Shown here: piece by piece, positions 4,650 through 21,498 of the stretch
Layout: the number at the start of each line of letters is the position of its first letter
Numbering within the stretch: the stretch's first letter is position 1
IMG/VR virus record: IMGVR_UViG_3300003543_000061
Location: 1 to 21,498 of that record
Reading direction: 5' to 3' (one strand)
Source of the DNA: a virus
Length of the DNA: 21,498 nucleotides
Translations under genes and position numbers: made by a program
The notes under the pieces: generated by a model
The model's input: only the letters and a program-made list of their open reading frames with translations
The model's database searches: none
Told to the model about the DNA's origin: nothing

Positions 4650-6287
4650 ATGATACTTGGTGAGGACTTGATTAAAGAGTACATTCTTAAACCATACAAT
4701 GGTAATATTAACGACTACCGAAAAGAACACGACCGCTTAGATATTTACTACAACGGTGGCGATATATCTTCAGAGATAGAAAAAATTACATCTTTTGAGA
4801 ACGATGCACAAAAAAAGTTGCGGGATGATATTGCACGCTCACCAAAAGAACTCGTGCAACGATTACTTAATCAATTTAATAAAATATTCACCGCCAGCGG
4901 TGGTAGTAATACCTTTGATTTTGAAGTTGAAAAACAACAGGATGAATTTATAGACAATCTTGCAAAGTTACCTGAAGGCATATCATTAAATAAATGGATG
5001 CAAGACTACTGGTTTGAGGCATACATAACAGACCCCAATGGAATTATATTTATAGAATCTGAAACCAATGATGACCCAAAATCATATCCTACATATAAAT
5101 CAATAAATACTATTCACGACTATAAATTAACGTGGAGTAATTTTGAATATCTTATTTTAAACTTCGGAAAGTTTATAATTAATGACAAGGAGGTTAAGGT
5201 ATATAGGGTAATAGATGATGAAAAGGACGGACTTTATTATATGGAAAACCAAACGTTAATGGAGTTTGGAGATGATGCTATTATAACCCACGAAAACGGG
5301 TTTGTGCCTGCGGTTTTAATGTCAGACCTTATAGATAAAAAGACAGGAGGAAAGAAATCGTTTATTCATTCGATAGAGGAGATTTTAACGGAATATGTAC
5401 GAGAATCTTCGGTACTTTCGATATTCAAGTTTTTACACGCATATCCTAAGTACTGGCAGTATGTTAGCAAGTGTACAAAATGTTCAGGAACTGGAAAAAT
5501 ACCAGACCCACAGGATGAAACAAGTAAAATAACGTGTACGTCTTGCGGTGGCAAAAAGTTTAATTTAAAACTAGATGTTAGCGATGGTATTATGTTACCA
5601 TTACCAAAAACTAGCACCGACCCCGTGCTTGCTCCAAACATTGCAGGGTTTTCAGTACCACCTATTGATGCGTGGGATAAAATGGAAGCGTCATTAGATA
5701 GGCTAGAGAAAAAAATGCAGTTTGCTATCATAGGCACTTATTTAGAAGAAGAAAAATCAAATACAGCAACGGGGCGTTTTATAGACACCCAACCTTTAGA
5801 CACCGCTTTACATAAGTTTTCAGAATCAGAAGAAAATATAAAAAACAAGGTTGCTGACTTTATTGCTAGATGGATGTTTGGCAATGATTATGGTAGTTTA
5901 TTAATTAAGAACGGCAAGCGTTTTATTAGTGAACATCCCGATACTATTTGGGTGAAATATATAGAAGCAAAAAACAATAGCGCACCGATAACATCACTAA
6001 ATTATTTATACAAGCAATATTTAATGAGCGAATATCAGAACAATGCGGATATGTATGAGCAGAAACTAAAAGAGTTTTTAATAGAGCCATTGGTACATTA
6101 TAGCATTAAGGAAATAGATGATTTGAGCAGCGTTACTATGGCGGTACAAGTTCAGGAGAAAATATATTTTTCAGAGTGGTTAAACACTACAACGGATTTC
6201 ACGAAAGACGTTGAGATATTAAGAACAGAATTTCAAGAATTTATTAATCAAAAAGATTTAAAAGATGAAAGTATTAAAGAAAATTAA
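4650..6287 (+). CDS. portal protein with zinc-ribbon-like insertion
   Basis: The 545-residue protein lies directly after the large terminase and has portal length and features: an N-terminal polar part, a segment at about 100-225 with many beta strands, a long central helix around residues 340-365 (DAWDKMEASLDRLEKKMQ), and the LEEEKSNTATGRFIDTQPLDTALHKFSESEENI region typical of portal stem/wing. It forms the dodecameric ring through which DNA enters the head and to which the tail is later attached. Residues 275-299 carry C275-TK-C278-SGTGK and C296-TS-C299-GGKK, a DnaJ-like CxxCxGxG pair that should bind one zinc ion. No protease or MuF domain is attached. Its last 23 bases overlap the next gene. 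Confidence 0.8.
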   Translation: MILGEDLIKEYILKPYNGNINDYRKEHDRLDIYYNGGDISSEIEKITSFENDAQKKLRDDIARSPKELVQRLLNQFNKIFTASGGSNTFDFEVEKQQDEFIDNLAKLPEGISLNKWMQDYWFEAYITDPNGIIFIESETNDDPKSYPTYKSINTIHDYKLTWSNFEYLILNFGKFIINDKEVKVYRVIDDEKDGLYYMENQTLMEFGDDAIITHENGFVPAVLMSDLIDKKTGGKKSFIHSIEEILTEYVRESSVLSIFKFLHAYPKYWQYVSKCTKCSGTGKIPDPQDETSKITCTSCGGKKFNLKLDVSDGIMLPLPKTSTDPVLAPNIAGFSVPPIDAWDKMEASLDRLEKKMQFAIIGTYLEEEKSNTATGRFIDTQPLDTALHKFSESEENIKNKVADFIARWMFGNDYGSLLIKNGKRFISEHPDTIWVKYIEAKNNSAPITSLNYLYKQYLMSEYQNNADMYEQKLKEFLIEPLVHYSIKEIDDLSSVTMAVQVQEKIYFSEWLNTTTDFTKDVEILRTEFQEFINQKDLKDESIKEN

Positions 6288-6471: not shown

Positions 6472-7290
6472 ATGTTAAAAAAAGAAACCATTGAGGCATT
6501 CGCCAATTTTTCGGGTGTTTCAGCTTCGGACTTAGAAGCAAAGATAAAAAGTGAAAGCGAGGAAGATATTACCCTGCGAGAAGTACAAGTATTTACAAAT
6601 GAGGAGCTAGATTCTAGAATTAAAAATGAAAAAAGCACCTCTTACAATGAGGGAAAAGATGCAGGAGTAGAAATGTTAGTGAAAAACAAAAAAAAGAAGC
6701 TAGGTTATGACTTTGAGGGTAAAGACTTAGATTCATTATTTAAGTTTCACACTACAAAAATAAAAGCAGGTTCTGACAAACCAAATGAAAAAATTACAGA
6801 GTTAGAGCAGGATATTATAAATATCAATAAAGCCCATAAAACTGTCGTTGATTCCTTAGAGTCTAAATATATTGATATACAAGGGAAATTAAATTCATCA
6901 ATAATTAGCAATGAATTACTATCTATTATTCCAGAAAAAACGGTAATACCAAAAAGCGACCTTGTTACGCTGTTTAATTATAACTTTACCGTTGAAAAAG
7001 AAGAAGGTAAAACGATTGTAAAACAACACGGAGAAACAATAAAAGACCAAAAAACAGCAACGCCACTATCTTTAAAGGATGTATTTATGAACTATGCAAC
7101 CGAAAAAAAATATATTGTTCCCCAAGGTGGTAGAGGTGGAGGAAATGAATCAGGGGATCAGGGTAGTAATGCTAAATCAATCTCACAATTTCAGACAGAA
7201 ATGGAGAAACAAGGAATTAACCTAAATTCACCAGAGTATCAAACAAAATATGCCGATTGGCGAAAAGTAAATAAAGAGGTAACGGCTTAA
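6472..7290 (+). CDS. probable capsid scaffolding protein
   Basis: The 272-residue protein is highly charged and largely helical. It has an N-terminal part FANFSGVSASDLEAKIKSE, coiled-coil-like stretches (LEQDIININKAHKTVVDSLESKYIDI), a Gly-rich linker QGGRGGGNESGDQG near residues 219-232, and a basic helical tail ending ADWRKVNKEVTA. This composition and its place immediately upstream of the major capsid gene are those of phage scaffolding proteins, which guide procapsid assembly and leave before DNA entry. No protease active site is visible, so a protease-scaffold fusion is unlikely. A minor capsid protein is the alternative. Confidence 0.65.
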   Translation: MLKKETIEAFANFSGVSASDLEAKIKSESEEDITLREVQVFTNEELDSRIKNEKSTSYNEGKDAGVEMLVKNKKKKLGYDFEGKDLDSLFKFHTTKIKAGSDKPNEKITELEQDIININKAHKTVVDSLESKYIDIQGKLNSSIISNELLSIIPEKTVIPKSDLVTLFNYNFTVEKEEGKTIVKQHGETIKDQKTATPLSLKDVFMNYATEKKYIVPQGGRGGGNESGDQGSNAKSISQFQTEMEKQGINLNSPEYQTKYADWRKVNKEVTA

Positions 7291-14500: not shown

Positions 14501-15658
14501 ATTAAAATAGCACAAAACGCAGCTAAGGAAAAGGCAATTAGAGAAAAAGCTTTAGCAGACACCCTACGAGGAGAAAACGAGTTATTTAAAAAAGAGATTG
14601 CAATTGCTGACAATAAAGAGGCTGTTATTGAAGCACACGAAAGACGTATAGCAGAAATTAAAAAGAAGTATGCTTTAGAGGGTTTAAATGCTCAAATTGA
14701 TGCTTTAAAAGTGCTAATTGCAGCGACAGAAGAAGGTTCTCTTGAACGCATAGAAGCTGAAAAAAGATTAGCTCAGGCGCAGCTTGCAATTTCTAATATC
14801 ACAACGGAGCAGTTTATAATTAATGAGGACACAAAGACCGAAAAAATTAAACTCTCAACTGAAGAGATACTACAAATATCAAATGATTTAACGCAGGCTT
14901 TAGGAGATTTAGCCAACTCATTATTTGATAGAAAGATACAAAACATAGATGAAGAAATCCAACAGCTAGAAGACAGCTATTCTAAACAGTTAGAACTTGC
15001 ACAGGGTGACGATGAACAAACGAAACTTCTTGAAATAGAGCAGGAAAAAAGGAGACAGGAGTTAGAAAAGAAGAAACGTAAAGAGCAACGCAAGCAAGCG
15101 ATATTAAACAAGGCTTTAGCCGTTGTGGAGGTCGCTATAAACACAGCAATAGCAGTATCTAAAGTTTGGGGTCAGACAGGAATATTTGGACTAGCTGCTC
15201 AGATACCTGTTCTTATTATGGGAGCATTACAAACCGCTGCAATCATAGCAACACCTATACCAAAATATGCTAAAGGAACAGACAACCACTTTGGGGGCTA
15301 TGCTTTAGTAGCCGAAGAACGTCCAGAGGTTATCCAAGAACCTAATAAAATGCCATACGTACAAAAAACGCCTGCAATATTAGACCTTCCGAAACATACC
15401 AAAGTAACCCGTTCTGTTGAAGATTATAATAAATTGCTAAAATCTTCAATGCTAACATCCATAGAAACAGAAAATAATAAGCTAAATTCTTTTTATTCAA
15501 GACAGATTTTTGATGTACACAATAAGGAGCTTTTAAACGAAATGCAACTTACAAGAAAGGCAATTGAGAAAAATAAAACAAATATTTACGTACAACAACA
15601 AACACCGATAGACTTTGAACACGAACTTTTTAAGTTAAATAACACAAATTGGGGGTAA
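11528..15658 (+). CDS. tail tape measure protein
   Basis: The 1376-residue protein has the TP901-type tape measure core at about residues 257-410 (e.g. LQIAYARLGFAQKEI and LDFEKLSIALPKVLGAANAL), which is characteristic of this family. Coiled-coil regions occupy roughly 60-150, 790-830 and 1140-1190. Hydrophobic segments lie at about 200-238, 512-545, 578-598 and 1190-1250, as usual for proteins that later enter the host membrane with the DNA. A conserved-looking C-terminus (PKYAKGTDNHFGGYALVAEE, then PKHTKVTRS) follows. By the 0.15 nm per residue rule the tail would be about 200 nm. No lysozyme or peptidase domain is visible in it. It overlaps its neighbours by 14 and 10 bases. Confidence 0.9.
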   Translation: MAGNKITRKDFIADDALNVGQDIAKGIQPAIDAMEKWLEVIKKSSIEYKKIGDQFKKAGSSKEFITTKKEEVQLSEQTTIALKEQQKAELNLIRTKSKLEQSTESTNRALIKERTALQATNKAIKDQAKEQLGLVGTYQKLNSKRTQAQKTLQNLLSADKQNVRQIKIAQKEYAKLNTRVLAVDRATNNYTKNIGNYRSALGGLTGSFRSLVSALGLASGIFAFVQVMRNGIKIIRDYGKANATLSAVLQVTKSEMSDLREESQRLGAVTVKTANEIVGLQIAYARLGFAQKEIIDLTELTIQGSIAMNSGLSETAKLTGAVINSMDEFSTTDAGQVLDILALSTARSALDFEKLSIALPKVLGAANALKIPFTEVTATLGKLTDAGIEASTAGTSLRKIFISAAKRGIDYKEALDKIRVSTEKVKTANEVFGTRAAVSALLIAKNAESVDILDESLNNAAGTIESMANKELDTLDGALQLLKSAWQGIVLGTDDANSISTKLKETLQFLAKNLKTIVIVLGRLIGIFIAYKALVIAVGLAQKAVTAYTIAYRIAVVSLNRGLLSAIKSMRLFKAALTTTGIGIAVVAITALVYAFTKLNVSLEESIKATNESTEAYLKTRIEQEKQAKVVDDLTSKYEGLTDGHVLNNKEQKELDRIIKLLAKDFPLAVTEVDKYGNAIAISTIKVKELNKANKESLFGGQREKTLLKENENQLKRLIAQQSRYNNVLEDGKGFYVEGVGAVASYNGVLKTQEIIQARSGNIIKEGNALTSAQIDLVSEAIKKNEEEIEQKKGYIATLKDEIKAREEVETSTVNNKKTTIEEVKALEKLRNELSGLKENLNDLTANGYDSLTESQAQSVVETRKLIASKQREIDAILGTTKALKDNSKERERIAKKQRQDAFNLAKFTIKESIKGFDEIAKSEETSLSERLGAIKLKASEELKLATLVKEFKLEKVKEGSNAELLILAQFEAEKKRITGKREDGEDGIEAIKIAQNAAKEKAIREKALADTLRGENELFKKEIAIADNKEAVIEAHERRIAEIKKKYALEGLNAQIDALKVLIAATEEGSLERIEAEKRLAQAQLAISNITTEQFIINEDTKTEKIKLSTEEILQISNDLTQALGDLANSLFDRKIQNIDEEIQQLEDSYSKQLELAQGDDEQTKLLEIEQEKRRQELEKKKRKEQRKQAILNKALAVVEVAINTAIAVSKVWGQTGIFGLAAQIPVLIMGALQTAAIIATPIPKYAKGTDNHFGGYALVAEERPEVIQEPNKMPYVQKTPAILDLPKHTKVTRSVEDYNKLLKSSMLTSIETENNKLNSFYSRQIFDVHNKELLNEMQLTRKAIEKNKTNIYVQQQTPIDFEHELFKLNNTNWG

Positions 15659-17922
15659 ATAGTATTACATATAACGACAGGGTAAGGTATCAGCTTCAGC
15701 ACAAAACTTATGGCTCTCTAATTATAACGGAGCCCATAGGTTGGGAAAATGACGAAAAAGAGTACGCACGGCATGAGGTATATCACGGAATACTAACTAA
15801 ATTCTCTAATAGTTTAAAATTTATTGATGATGGTGCAAACTACATTACATTTATAAAAGATGTCTATGGAATTAATGATAATATAAGACTTACAAGAGAT
15901 GAAAAGAATCCAAATACCGATATATGGGAACGCTCATACTATGGTGATTTAGATTTGTCAACCTATGAAATAAGCAATAGAGAGGTATCCATAAAATTTA
16001 ATTCTTCAGGGTTAGAACAACTATTAAAATCTAGGGAATCGGAAAAGGTAGAAATAGAACGAGACACTTCAATGGATGGGGATAGTATTGGAGATTTGGT
16101 GATGAATACTACAAAACTAAACGGCAGACAAATATTTTTAATGACTACATATAAGGAAAATGAAACAAACGATTCTACTTATATGTATAACACAACCGCT
16201 AATGACAATGTAAGGGGTGCGTCTGTTGGTATTCCTTTAAAGTTGGTAGGTAAATCTCACGAAAATGCGCATACGGTAATACCACAAACAGCCATAGGAG
16301 ACAATTCTTTTGATAGGTCAGCAGTTGGAGATGTAGGTATGATGTTTTTTGCGGTAAGTGACTTAGATAGAACGCTGAGAATATCATTTAAAATATCTTT
16401 TAAGTTTGTAATTAATAACACCCATAGCGGTCACGACACCGATGATTATGATGATTTAGACTGGTCTATGTTTTGGCTAAGATTAGCAACGTATAAAGAT
16501 GGCTCGGATTTAAACTATAAAGAAGATAGGGTATTAGCGTTTTTAGGTTATGATGGTGTAAATGATAGCACTCACCACGATGTCCTAGATTATAATTTTC
16601 AGACCTTAACATATACATTTGATGAAACTATAAATTTATTAACTGGTGAAAGCCTATCTCTTCAATTTTCGCAATTAATGAGGGGAAAATATGCAGTAGG
16701 ACATCAAGCACATTTAAAAATAAATTGTGAAGACATAGATATTGAGTATTTCTCTATAGAAGAAGATAGTTTTTTTGAAGCCACAACGGCTAAAACCATT
16801 CTATCTCACGACCTTGGGAATAGATTAATTCAGATAATAACAGGAAAAGAAGATTTGTTTTATTCTGAAATTCTAGGCAGGCAGGACATTGGTTACTCTA
16901 GCAATGGTGAGGCTTCCTTTTTGGGGTTCACTCACGGTTTTTGGGTTCGCAACTTTGATCGGTTTCCAGAAGATGAAGAAAACAAATATAAAGGGTTTAC
17001 GACATCTTTTAAAGAATATTTAGAATCTATGTTTGCCCTTAGAAATTTAGGTCTAGGTATTGAAAGGCTAGGTTTTAAGGAAAGGGTAAGAGTTGAGAAA
17101 ATGGAATATTTTTACAACGGAAATATATTAATAAATCTACCTAATCAGGTACAAAATGTAAAAAGGAGTATTGCAAAGGAATATTATTATTCTGGTATTG
17201 AGGTCGGATTTTTAAAAGGTGGTGAATATGAGGAGGCTATGGGGTTAGATGAATATAATGCTAAATCGACATTTACAACCGTAATAACTAGGTTAAAGAA
17301 ATCTTATAAGGCACTTTCTAAGTATCGGGGTGATTCTTATGGTAAAGAGTTTGCGAGAAGAAAGCAAATATCATCATATCCTACGGAGGACACCACCTAT
17401 GATAAGGATATTTTTGTAATGGATTTAAAACAAGGTATAGGAGTGTTAGAGGAAAGGCTATGGCAGGATGATTTTGAGCAAGCACCAACGGGGGTTTTTA
17501 GCCCAGAAACGGCAACAAATTTAAGGCTTTCACCTTTTAATACGATGCTTTTACACGGGTGGAATATCTCTACGGGTTTTATAAAGTATGCTAGTGATTA
17601 TGTAAGGTATGGTAGTTCTGTTGCAAATAGTGGCTTAACTACAAAATTAGTAGGGGGGAATGAATATTCTGAAAATGGCAATATTATAAATTCAGAGTTA
17701 CAAAGACCTCGATACATTCCAGAGTGGATAGAATTTGAACACGAGGTGAATTTTGATTTAATAAAACAAGTAGAGGGTACTACTATCATATCGGGAAAAG
17801 AAACACCTAATTTTTATGGAAAGGTGCAATTCATTAACGAAATTGGAGAGAAAGAAAAGGGGTTTTTATTTAGCCTAAAACCCAATAAAAAAGGAAAGTG
17901 GAAAATATTAAAAAGCAACTAA
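15649..17922 (+). CDS. distal tail/baseplate protein, TTG start
   Basis: The 757-residue protein follows the tape measure gene and overlaps it by 10 bases. No ATG is available for about 140 codons, yet the first residues (VNSITYNDRVRYQLQHKTYG) read as a normal N-terminus, so the TTG at 15649 is the likely start. The protein is rich in beta strands, Asp and Tyr (for example EYARHEVYHGILTKFSNSLK and SYYGDLDLSTYEISNREVS), with a long middle carrying Asn/Asp-rich turns, and a Lys-rich tail. These are traits of tail-tip proteins that bind the end of the tape measure and the fibres. An HEVYH string is present near the N-terminus but lacks other peptidase features. The exact role is not established. 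Confidence 0.65.
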   Translation: MGVNSITYNDRVRYQLQHKTYGSLIITEPIGWENDEKEYARHEVYHGILTKFSNSLKFIDDGANYITFIKDVYGINDNIRLTRDEKNPNTDIWERSYYGDLDLSTYEISNREVSIKFNSSGLEQLLKSRESEKVEIERDTSMDGDSIGDLVMNTTKLNGRQIFLMTTYKENETNDSTYMYNTTANDNVRGASVGIPLKLVGKSHENAHTVIPQTAIGDNSFDRSAVGDVGMMFFAVSDLDRTLRISFKISFKFVINNTHSGHDTDDYDDLDWSMFWLRLATYKDGSDLNYKEDRVLAFLGYDGVNDSTHHDVLDYNFQTLTYTFDETINLLTGESLSLQFSQLMRGKYAVGHQAHLKINCEDIDIEYFSIEEDSFFEATTAKTILSHDLGNRLIQIITGKEDLFYSEILGRQDIGYSSNGEASFLGFTHGFWVRNFDRFPEDEENKYKGFTTSFKEYLESMFALRNLGLGIERLGFKERVRVEKMEYFYNGNILINLPNQVQNVKRSIAKEYYYSGIEVGFLKGGEYEEAMGLDEYNAKSTFTTVITRLKKSYKALSKYRGDSYGKEFARRKQISSYPTEDTTYDKDIFVMDLKQGIGVLEERLWQDDFEQAPTGVFSPETATNLRLSPFNTMLLHGWNISTGFIKYASDYVRYGSSVANSGLTTKLVGGNEYSENGNIINSELQRPRYIPEWIEFEHEVNFDLIKQVEGTTIISGKETPNFYGKVQFINEIGEKEKGFLFSLKPNKKGKWKILKSN

Positions 17923-19941
17923 ATGACTTACTCAGAGATACAAATAACGTTCAATGAAGATTTACAAATTGATAGTAATCTAGGGTTTACGATTTCTTCT
18001 ATTGACCCTATTATTTTGCAATATGTAGTCTTTAGATGGGTTACTATACGTTCTGCAATTTCAGAGGTCACAACAGGAACACCAACGGGAACGATAGGAG
18101 AAAGAACGGCTATTAATTTTGTAACGGCTTTTAATTTAGATTGGAATACTTCGGGAATTTATCAAATTACTCAATTGCTCAATGTTGTTACTATCAAATC
18201 GACAATTTCATATTTAAACTTTTCAAATCCTTTTAGTTATGATGATTGGTTAAATCCTGTTAACCCTAATGATGTTGTTTTTGTTATTGATAATTTTAGC
18301 GGTAATATATTTGATATTGATAGCGTGACATTTTCAGAATCTAGTAGTGCGTGTACACACATTGATATTAATGTTACCACTAGCACGCAAGCCTCTAGTT
18401 ATTCATATACTCGGGACTCCGCACCTATTGGGGTGACAACAAACCCTTTTACAATTACAATAGTAAGAGGTGGCTCTATAAGTTTAACCGTTAATAATGC
18501 CGATGGTGATGTCGCTACTCAGGTGATTGAAATACCAGATTCTTTTAATAGCGAAAGTTTTAATTTAGATATAAATACAAATCCAGAGGGTGCAACGGTA
18601 ATCGTAAATAGTGATTTATTTGGTTTAAATTTAGAATATTCATTATCAGGTGCAACTTGGCAGACCTCAAATGTATTCACAGGATTATCATCAGGCGATT
18701 ATACTCTTTATGTAAAAGACCAATATGGATGTACAAAAACCAAAAGCTTCTTTGTTTCGGAGTTTGGAATACAAAACCCATTTTTCTATATTTCAAAAGC
18801 AAATTCCTTTCGATGGGCGGAGCGTATAGTATGGGGTGATTCTGCAAACTATAAAACCGATGAAAATACTTTGAGTTGTGAGGTTGATGTACCTCTAGCA
18901 AAAAGAGAAATACAACAATTTCAGAGCTCAGATATAGAAACCCAACAAATAAAATCTAATTATAAGACCATTACGGCTCAGGTAGTTGATGAAAGTGGTA
19001 ATATTATCAATATACCCATTACTAAGATGTCTAGCAATATAGGATTAAAAGATAGTAGGGATGCTATAAAATACAATTTACAAAATGGCAAAACAGGTAT
19101 TTATTTCACAACTGGAAACATCTATGATTATGACTTAGGTAATGATATTGGCGACCATTCTTTAAACGGCTCACTTCCAGAGTGGGGAATATCAGGTAAT
19201 TATATAAAGTATGGAGGTGCGTGGTTTATGATTCAAGATATTATATATAACGAGGATAAAAACGCAGAGGTGCTAGTAATAGATAATGAATATTTAGGCG
19301 TTGAGGTTTCAGAGATTGTAAAGTCAATATTTAACAGACAGAATTATGAGGTTTATGAGTTTACGGTTGATTTCGTTACTTATATAAGTCAAACCATACA
19401 TTTGGAGCTTATAAATGCAGACCCTAATTTTACAGACTTAGAACATCATACTGAAGACATAAATATTGAAGTACGACAGGAAAACACCGTTGAGATACGA
19501 TATAAAAACAAAATAAATACGGACATTGTTTTCTCTACAGGAATAGAATTTAAAATAAGAGTCTTGCGAGAGGTCATAAATGGTAGATTAGAGGGTGAAA
19601 CTGAAAACTATAAAACCGATGCTACTACTATACTTTTAAATTCACAGGTATATGAAACGGACGAGTTTGAATTTCAGCCTATGACTAAGGAATTTATGCG
19701 AAAAACGGTGCTTGCTTTGATTCATACGGATGTAAAAATTGATGGTGTAGATTATGTTTCTTCGGGGCTTCCAGAGGTTGAGGGTGCGCTAGGTGAAACA
19801 AATTTATATATTGTAAAAGCAACGATGATAAAATCGAATTCGGTGTTTAATAGTAATAATTCTGAAAGTTTAGAATTTGATATTAATGGAGAAATACCTG
19901 GATTAGTAGATTATGGTGGTGGATGGGTTAAATGGAATTAG
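17923..19941 (+). CDS. tail protein with Ig/SprB-like domains
   Basis: The 672-residue protein starts immediately after the previous stop. The first ~135 residues are beta-rich. Residues about 141-206 read as one Ig-like unit, and 216-279 as a second, with LEYSLSGATWQTSNVFTGLS, GDYTLYVKDQYGC and a Cys at 270, which is the pattern of SprB repeats found in the gliding adhesin of Flavobacteria (Y-S-x-x-G-x-x-W-Q-x-S-N-x-F-x-G-L-x-x-G-x-Y-T-x-x-V-x-D-x-x-G-C). The rest has motifs of tail proteins of flavobacterial phages (FRWAERIVWGDSANYKTDEN, ITAQVVDESGNIINIPITKM). It probably sits at the tail tip and may contact the host surface. The last 14 bases overlap a minus-strand gene. Confidence 0.65.
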   Translation: MTYSEIQITFNEDLQIDSNLGFTISSIDPIILQYVVFRWVTIRSAISEVTTGTPTGTIGERTAINFVTAFNLDWNTSGIYQITQLLNVVTIKSTISYLNFSNPFSYDDWLNPVNPNDVVFVIDNFSGNIFDIDSVTFSESSSACTHIDINVTTSTQASSYSYTRDSAPIGVTTNPFTITIVRGGSISLTVNNADGDVATQVIEIPDSFNSESFNLDINTNPEGATVIVNSDLFGLNLEYSLSGATWQTSNVFTGLSSGDYTLYVKDQYGCTKTKSFFVSEFGIQNPFFYISKANSFRWAERIVWGDSANYKTDENTLSCEVDVPLAKREIQQFQSSDIETQQIKSNYKTITAQVVDESGNIINIPITKMSSNIGLKDSRDAIKYNLQNGKTGIYFTTGNIYDYDLGNDIGDHSLNGSLPEWGISGNYIKYGGAWFMIQDIIYNEDKNAEVLVIDNEYLGVEVSEIVKSIFNRQNYEVYEFTVDFVTYISQTIHLELINADPNFTDLEHHTEDINIEVRQENTVEIRYKNKINTDIVFSTGIEFKIRVLREVINGRLEGETENYKTDATTILLNSQVYETDEFEFQPMTKEFMRKTVLALIHTDVKIDGVDYVSSGLPEVEGALGETNLYIVKATMIKSNSVFNSNNSESLEFDINGEIPGLVDYGGGWVKWN

Positions 19942-20178: not shown

Positions 20179-21498
20179 ATGAGCTTAATATCTCAACTAT
20201 ATCAGTCGGTAGTATCTCTTACGGAAAGGGTAAATCTATGGGAGAACAACGCAAAGAGTAATGAGGAACTTCCTGTAATGAATCCAATCGACCGCACGGC
20301 TTTAAATAGGGTATCAAAAGATAATGTTTCAAAAGTTTTTACTATTCAAGAGCTTATTAACGACATTCAGCAGGAAAATGGGGCAACGAAAGAACATTTT
20401 TTAAACCTTTCGGGTATAGACACCTCTGTTAGTGAGTTAGATTATGTTGCTAGTGCTATAATTACAAAGGGAGAATTTTTAAAAGAAACTGGGGAACAGA
20501 TGGTATTCCAGACTTCGGTTGTTATTGGAACAGACCAGAGCGATTATGGCATTTTAAAGCGTTGGTATCGTTTCAAAAGAAATGATAATAATGTTGGTGG
20601 CGTTACGGGTTTTGTTGTTACCGATAATGATATAATGCCAGATGGAAGGATAGAAATAAACCTACAAGACAACTCGGATTTATTCATTGATTTGGGTGTT
20701 ATAAATAATCCCGATACTGTTGAGAGTGTTTTTAATTTAGGAATATTGGGAGAGCCTTACGTTATTGTCGGTGAGCAGTTTATAACTGGAATTTTAGATG
20801 GTGTGGATACTATTTGGCGTTTCAATGGTGGTGATGGTGCTTGGGGTGGTGACGATGTTGGTGACCCTGAATATCTTGCTGCGACTGCTGTGATGTTTGA
20901 TAATTTAAGTTTGCAGCCCGACACAGACCCTAACGTTGGAATCCCTGAAGCTCCTATTGACGGCTTTCCATATTCACGTCAGGATGCAGATTGGGTAAAG
21001 GCTTTTACTGGTTATCTTGGTATAAGTGAAACGGGAAACCCTGCTGACTTAGACTATGTATTAAAATGGGGAGATTACCTATTAGAAGGCTCGGGTGTTT
21101 ATATGGAGCTAAACGATGGTAATGGCGGTCCTATTACTATTTATAATACTTTCTTAAAATATGATTCAGCCGCTTTTAATAATCCCTTAATAGATGATGG
21201 TTTTATACCACATAAAGGATATGTAGATAATAAGATAACGGTGTATTCTGCTAACTTTACTGCTGATAGGTTTGGTTTTCACAACAATACTATCGAGGTA
21301 GATGGTGCTTTTACGGCAACATTGCCTTTAACTTTAGCTGTGCCAGTAGGTTCATTTTGCTATTTCATTCAGAAAGGAGCAGGAACATCTGTTTTAACAG
21401 CTGCAGCAGGCGTAAAAATAAACGGTGTGGATGGTAAAAGTTTAAATATATCTAATGTAGGGCAATATGGAGGGCTTAGGCTTTATAAAACAGCAGTA
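20179..21498 (+). CDS. tail fibre/adhesin-like protein (partial)
   Basis: The frame is open for 440 codons from ATG 20179 to the right edge without a stop. The N-terminus (MSLISQLYQSVVSLTERVNL) reads as a coiled-coil helix, followed by a part with SVSELDYVASAIITKGEFLK and then Asp/Gly-rich beta segments (GVINNPDTVESVFNLGILGE, GVDTIWRFNGGDGAWGGDD). The last part (TATLPLTLAVPVGSFCYFIQ, then KGAGTSVLTAAAGVKINGVD) is typical of repeats in phage fibre and appendage proteins that stabilise beta-prism or beta-helix shafts. The start forms an ATGA overlap with a 4-codon frame at 20168-20182. It is probably a host-binding fibre; the C-terminal receptor-binding end lies outside the window. Confidence 0.65.
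   Translation, partial: MSLISQLYQSVVSLTERVNLWENNAKSNEELPVMNPIDRTALNRVSKDNVSKVFTIQELINDIQQENGATKEHFLNLSGIDTSVSELDYVASAIITKGEFLKETGEQMVFQTSVVIGTDQSDYGILKRWYRFKRNDNNVGGVTGFVVTDNDIMPDGRIEINLQDNSDLFIDLGVINNPDTVESVFNLGILGEPYVIVGEQFITGILDGVDTIWRFNGGDGAWGGDDVGDPEYLAATAVMFDNLSLQPDTDPNVGIPEAPIDGFPYSRQDADWVKAFTGYLGISETGNPADLDYVLKWGDYLLEGSGVYMELNDGNGGPITIYNTFLKYDSAAFNNPLIDDGFIPHKGYVDNKITVYSANFTADRFGFHNNTIEVDGAFTATLPLTLAVPVGSFCYFIQKGAGTSVLTAAAGVKINGVDGKSLNISNVGQYGGLRLYKTAV

Follow-up and report, generated by a model that had tools for sequence, protein, structure and literature searches.

A divergent SprB-type repeat in a tail-tip protein family of Flavobacteriia phages

Gene order and parts of the tail-tip protein

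The whole stretch of DNA which was analysed, in the following called the window, is an IMG/VR virus record of 21,498 bases; its relevant features are listed in Table 1. The protein of interest is encoded by the second gene after the tape measure gene, and a PHROG search showed a match of its residues 4–635 to phrog_26672, "virion structural protein", with an E value of 2.9e-52. The 757-aa protein is a constant neighbour, with homologues encoded directly upstream of the tip gene in related loci; at one of these, L217, two ORFs (at 4983 and 6143) encode the homologue in separate parts. The putative fibre gene yielded only weak matches to tail-fibre or virion PHROGs (E 0.007–0.03). For gp98 of Cellulophaga phage phi19:1, a homologue of the tip protein, presence in the virion was detected by MS/MS, as stated in a note of its record. 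The initial annotation had spoken of a tail-tip protein; assignment to phrog_26672, the conserved order of genes downstream of the tape measure gene and the homologue detected by MS/MS agree with a protein of the tail end. Searching PDB with the sequence of the whole tip protein gave no match, and a profile of the 757-aa neighbour found none at E ≤ 1.

Table 1. Genes of the window and parts of the tail-tip protein, with positions in the window
Feature	Residues	Position	Strand	Remarks
Tape measure protein, 1376 aa		11528..15658	+	PF10145, E 4.3e-21; several tape-measure PHROGs
Virion structural protein, 757 aa, phrog_15220		15649..17922	+	directly upstream of the tip gene
Tail-tip structural protein, phrog_26672 family		17923..19941	+	672 aa
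N-terminal domain	1–129	17923..18309	+	lowest conservation, mean pairwise identity 17%
d1, Ig-like beta sandwich; probable degenerate copy of the SprB-type repeat	130–208	18310..18546	+	
d2, SprB-type repeat	209–282	18547..18768	+	whole-repeat HMM, hhalign, fold
d2, HMM core	234–280	18622–18762	+	
C-terminal module	283–672	18769..19938	+	own gene in Polaribacter phages Danklef and Freya
Putative fibre gene		20179..21498	+	open 3' end, runs off the window

Identity of the d2 domain

A repeat resembling those of SprB had been placed by the initial annotation at residues 216–279 (18568–18759). The position and the quoted motifs were found to be correct; the stretch lies inside the repeat, for which the limits given for d2 in Table 1 are better suited. 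The proposed verification with the Pfam family PF13573 failed, since the window protein gave no match at E ≤ 10, and a PF13573 scan of the window's own record was negative as well. None of 11 members of the tip family reached the cut-off of PF13573 (28 bits; best E 0.0099), and Pfam and NCBIfam scans of the tip protein and of the d1–d2 region contained nothing above cut-off; PEGA, CHB_HEX_C and Y_Y_Y appeared only as weak Pfam matches below their cut-offs. Judged from its matches in host genomes, the 37 positions of PF13573 correspond to the first half of the repeat, with its Cys, Gly-Gly and Pro-Tyr. In 29 sequences of the tip family the hallmarks of this first half (C12, GG26–27, PY30–31) are lost from d2; those of the second half (Y33, G53, Y55, D61, G64, C65) are each present in 83–100%, and d2 of the window has all six. 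Thus PF13573 misses d2 because it models just that half whose hallmarks are lost, which accounts for the domain being overlooked by standard Pfam annotation.

An HMM of the whole repeat (78 columns) was built from 30 host loci in Bacteroidota genomes. The genomes came from a scan using the phage domain; the loci were selected by PF13573, and phage sequence had therefore no part in choosing the repeats. This HMM matched the core of d2 in the window with 51.8 bits (E 3.6e-15 at Z = 1000), which is far above the maximum of 12.1 bits obtained with 5,000 block-shuffled proteins of the family, and the likeness to SprB repeats is thus real. In the other full-length members d2 scored 35–53 bits, and in L005 21 bits. 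An HMM of classic W-type repeats, from four loci of Flavobacterium beibuense, gave 22.1 bits in the window (shuffle maximum 7.2). Profile-profile comparison of d2 with SprB-type repeats by hhalign resulted in a probability of 98.7–98.9%. PKD was tried as an alternative identity and rejected: a PKD_4-type HMM scored 3.4 bits in the window, while shuffled sequences reached up to 11.2 with this HMM, and hhalign gave 13%, so that the domain is distinct from PKD.

A host protein suitable for a reciprocal comparison was an ORF of 6,744 aa from F. beibuense. It contains SprB repeats (3.6e-68 in the tested stretch) and carries a CHU_C signal at its end (5.2e-17), and the gene directly following is a PorP/SprF gene (porP/sprF, 7.6e-70); for these reasons the ORF was read as SprB-like; from its size and its neighbour it may be orthologous to SprB of F. 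johnsoniae. An HMM of its repeats scored 48.8 bits in the window (shuffle maximum 11.4). In the reverse search, 1,134 residues of this adhesin matched phrog_26672, a model independent of the HMMs built here, with E 1.7e-57, and the best stretch corresponded to model positions 213–283, exactly d2.

If d2 were merely a generic Ig-like or PKD-like domain, without a special tie to SprB-type repeats, the lack of a PF13573 match and the weak matches to PEGA, CHB_HEX_C and Y_Y_Y would be understandable. Moreover, a search of PDB with a profile of the host repeats also retrieves decoration and neck proteins of phages at about 1e-5 (decoration protein 5lxk, E 8.6e-6), and the SprB-type family therefore borders on general Ig-like domains; in phage virions, Ig-like domains are represented also by the BACON repeats of crAssphage. 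However, the profile of d2 itself found no phage Ig-like chains in PDB, only the grappling-hook protein GhpA of Aureispira (E 0.009). A generic nature of d2 is already contradicted by the whole-repeat HMM, the profile-profile comparison and the reciprocal match between adhesin and phrog_26672, and would appear extremely improbable. The same three lines of evidence confirm, at the level of sequence, that d2 belongs to the domain family of the repeats in SprB-like, T9SS-secreted adhesins of Bacteroidota.

A consequence for annotation should be mentioned. Since a host SprB-like adhesin is matched through the d2 columns, phrog_26672, which is filed under the category head and packaging, can mislabel host proteins, and SprB-like adhesins of hosts may be found annotated as "virion structural protein".

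The region preceding d2 is probably a degenerate copy. With the whole-repeat HMM, d1 of the window reached 11.8 bits, that of phi19:1 23.0 and that of L060 17.5, compared to the shuffle maximum of 12.1, and beta strands are present there in the AF2 model. The assignment is graded as probable and not as proved, since profile-profile comparison with SprB-type repeats yielded only 20%. In the alignment of the tip family, C144 (d1; 18352–18354) and C270 (d2; 18730–18732) are invariant; the pair of repeats has thus retained its outer cysteines and lost the inner ones.

Distribution, selection and origin

The d1–d2 region was found in phages of Cellulophaga, Polaribacter (P12002), Tenacibaculum and Leeuwenhoekiella. 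At eight of eight viral contigs located solely by their homologue of the 757-aa neighbour, i.e., without the SprB-type domain as a query, d2 was present in the next ORF. A consensus of the host repeat (54 aa, hand-edited from the HMM consensus) matched 12 of 50,697 phage records; ten came from phages of Cellulophaga, Polaribacter and Tenacibaculum, in each case with the match at the tip protein, and two were uncultured megaphages. The named phages with a d2 domain all infect Flavobacteriia, and the cellular relatives of d2 belong almost all to Bacteroidota; the link of the domain to host surface proteins is real. A module from which gliding adhesins of the hosts are built is a fixed part of the tails of these phages. 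Entries of uncultured phages named "SprB repeat" exist in UniProt, so that the occurrence of such repeats in phages is, in general terms, already on record in databases; within the collection of papers searched, none dealing with SprB repeats of phage proteins was found. The SprB-type domain is named neither in the records of the phrog_26672 isolates nor in the isolation paper checked, and the assignment of d2 is the first of a domain for this tail-protein family of Flavobacteriia phages, whose make-up was previously unknown.

Some loci differ in their arrangement. In the Polaribacter phages Danklef and Freya (L010, L011; 5454–7182) the SprB-type domain is absent; a separate gene corresponds to the C-terminal half of the tip protein, preceded by a gene for 180 aa, unrelated in appearance and with no SprB-type match found, which replaces the N-terminal half. 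In two contigs (L212 and L216, ORF at 7226) the tip protein has 860 aa, with about 190 aa inserted.

SprB-type repeats were also seen in other viral proteins. Proteins of 738–2065 aa with 4–14 tandem repeats are encoded on viral contigs, possibly not all of phages (L032–L045, L047, L049–L056, L058, L059, L067, L069, L074–L076); in L036 and L053, PF13573 and Cadherin were above their cut-offs. A distinct family of 530–544 aa contains two repeats (L046, L048, L057, L061–L066, L068, L070–L073), with a PF13573 match of E 2.4e-8 in L065. In a hub-like fusion of 978 aa (phage ORF L030:3572–6505), an SprB-type repeat (102–171) is combined with a "GCTDPAASNYNPAAQVNDGSC" motif and with a C-terminal region (497–930) which is homologous to the 757-aa neighbour (E 3.8e-54). 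The record LR756502.1, from an uncultured phage of 642 kb, has 12 places resembling SprB repeats, one of them at 516160–516318.

Within the tip family, mean identity was low in the N-terminal domain (17%) and in d1 (19%), and higher in d2 (34%) and in the C-terminal regions (30%). Values of dN/dS (omega) for d2 were 0.04 for the pair L002/L003 and 0.26 for phi19:1/Nekkels, and 0.23–0.45 for the N-terminal domain and d1, from a small sample of two pairs; in these two pairs, d2 is under purifying selection. Between phi19:1 and Nekkels, d2 is 60% identical versus 90–98% for the C-terminal regions, and d2 can therefore change fast in some lineages. GC and GC3 of d2 resemble those of the rest of the gene; together with the purifying selection, this ordinary base composition suggests that d2 is not a recent capture.

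For the phylogeny, a tree of 130 rows and 78 columns was calculated, which was mostly unresolved. Copies of the tip protein as one clade were not rejected (p-AU 0.72), the constrained tree being better than the free tree, and neither were all phage copies as one clade (p-AU 0.66). A comparison with host repeats had been recommended in the initial annotation; the direction of transfer is not settled by 78 columns.

Capture from host DNA had been named as a possible origin. A recent acquisition of the repeat from the present host of the phage would fit the near confinement of the domain family, apart from these phages, to surface proteins of Bacteroidota. However, the domain is kept in every full-length member sampled and in several phage groups, its base composition is that of the gene, the tip copies are compatible with one clade, and the copy in the window is at most about 50–60% identical to host repeats. 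Recent capture is already contradicted by these results and can be given hardly any credence. Alternatively, phages and Bacteroidota could exchange repeats repeatedly and in both directions, possibly also from phage to host. The occurrence of SprB-type repeats in two further kinds of proteins on viral contigs, in the hub-like fusion and in megaphage records would be in favour of such sharing; since a single clade of all phage copies was not rejected, it is considered rather unlikely.

Predicted structure, possible role and comparison with known systems

In the AF2 model of the tip protein (pLDDT 81.8), d1 and d2 are both beta sandwiches. The model of d2 resembles the Ig-like domain of SGBP-B with Z 8.0 and an rmsd of 2.4 over 73 residues, and the N-terminal domain gave weak fold matches to phage nozzle and tube proteins (Z 7.7–7.8); Z values of 8–9 are modest for a beta-rich model of 672 residues, and fold alone shows no function. 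PDB matches of the whole model with Foldseek (SiiE, S-layer, complement) were of the generic tandem-Ig type and were given no weight.

Ig-like domains serve as spacers in surface proteins of the SGBP type and in tail fibres. Similarly, d1 and d2 may act together as a rigid Ig-like stalk or spacer in the tail tip, with the variable N-terminal domain on one side and the conserved C-terminal module on the other. From its variability, the N-terminal domain would be the likelier contact surface; the C-terminal module, judging from its lower variability and from the gene split in Danklef and Freya, would provide the anchor at the tail tip. An adhesive role of d1–d2, if any, should be a weak and general contact with surfaces. 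The module probably entered phages long ago, from a pool common to phages and their Bacteroidota hosts. Taken together, a divergent Ig-like domain of the SprB family, with a probable copy before it, a function as stalk or spacer and an old entry into phages, is the reading which we consider fairly probable.

The initial annotation had suggested that the phage protein could mimic or contact the moving adhesin layer. The tip would then dock on the SprB layer or on partners of SprB, and the phage would attach to, or ride on, the gliding conveyor. Homology of the domain to SprB-type repeats and the Flavobacteriia hosts of the named carriers are consistent with this proposal, and contact with SprB is conceivable because papers on Flavobacterium and Cellulophaga have proposed that phages use gliding adhesins as receptors (PMC7345892, PMC13288928). 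On the other hand, the tip protein possesses a single well-conserved repeat, and repeats of the SprB type are common in many other surface proteins. SprB is attached to the surface via its C-terminal 368 residues and SprF (PMC9143113), whereas searches for a T9SS signal in the phage protein were negative, with no match to CHU_C or Por_Secre_tail. In addition, d2 is under purifying selection, unlike a varying receptor-binding surface. Contact or mimicry therefore appears quite unlikely, and its narrower form, a homotypic or partner contact with the moving SprB layer in which docking on the gliding conveyor would be the first step of adsorption, even a little less likely. With gliding adhesins as suspected receptors and with the domain now assigned, a role of the common domain in adsorption should be concretely testable.

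Full-length homologues with identical gene order and a common d1–d2 region are the other members of phrog_26672, namely Cellulophaga phi19:1 gp98, Nekkels gp50, Polaribacter P12002S/L gp28 and Tenacibaculum JQ, although the tip protein of the window is only 20–31% identical to the aligned isolates. The SprB repeat (PF13573) has its second half in common with d2, of the form YS.DG...Q.SN.F.GL..G.YT.YVKD..GC; proteins with SprB repeats contain many copies, whereas the tip protein is a virion protein with one good copy. The gliding adhesin SprB is very large, with tandem repeats, a C-terminal T9SS signal and sprF adjoining; in contrast, the window protein has 672 aa and phage tail genes as neighbours. 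Ig-like domains of phage virions, such as the decoration protein 5lxk, are sandwiches of the same kind, but lie beyond the reach of the d2 profile. The fold of d2 is like that of the Ig-like domain in SGBP-B of Bacteroides thetaiotaomicron (7kwb; 18% identity), which is a bacterial surface glycan-binding protein, whereas d2 is part of a virion protein. Finally, residues 9–321 of pb4, the straight central fibre of T5 and DT57C, can be aligned with tip residues 129–517 with a modest Z of 8.7–9.0 (rmsd 4.5–4.9 over about 230 residues, 11–12% identity).
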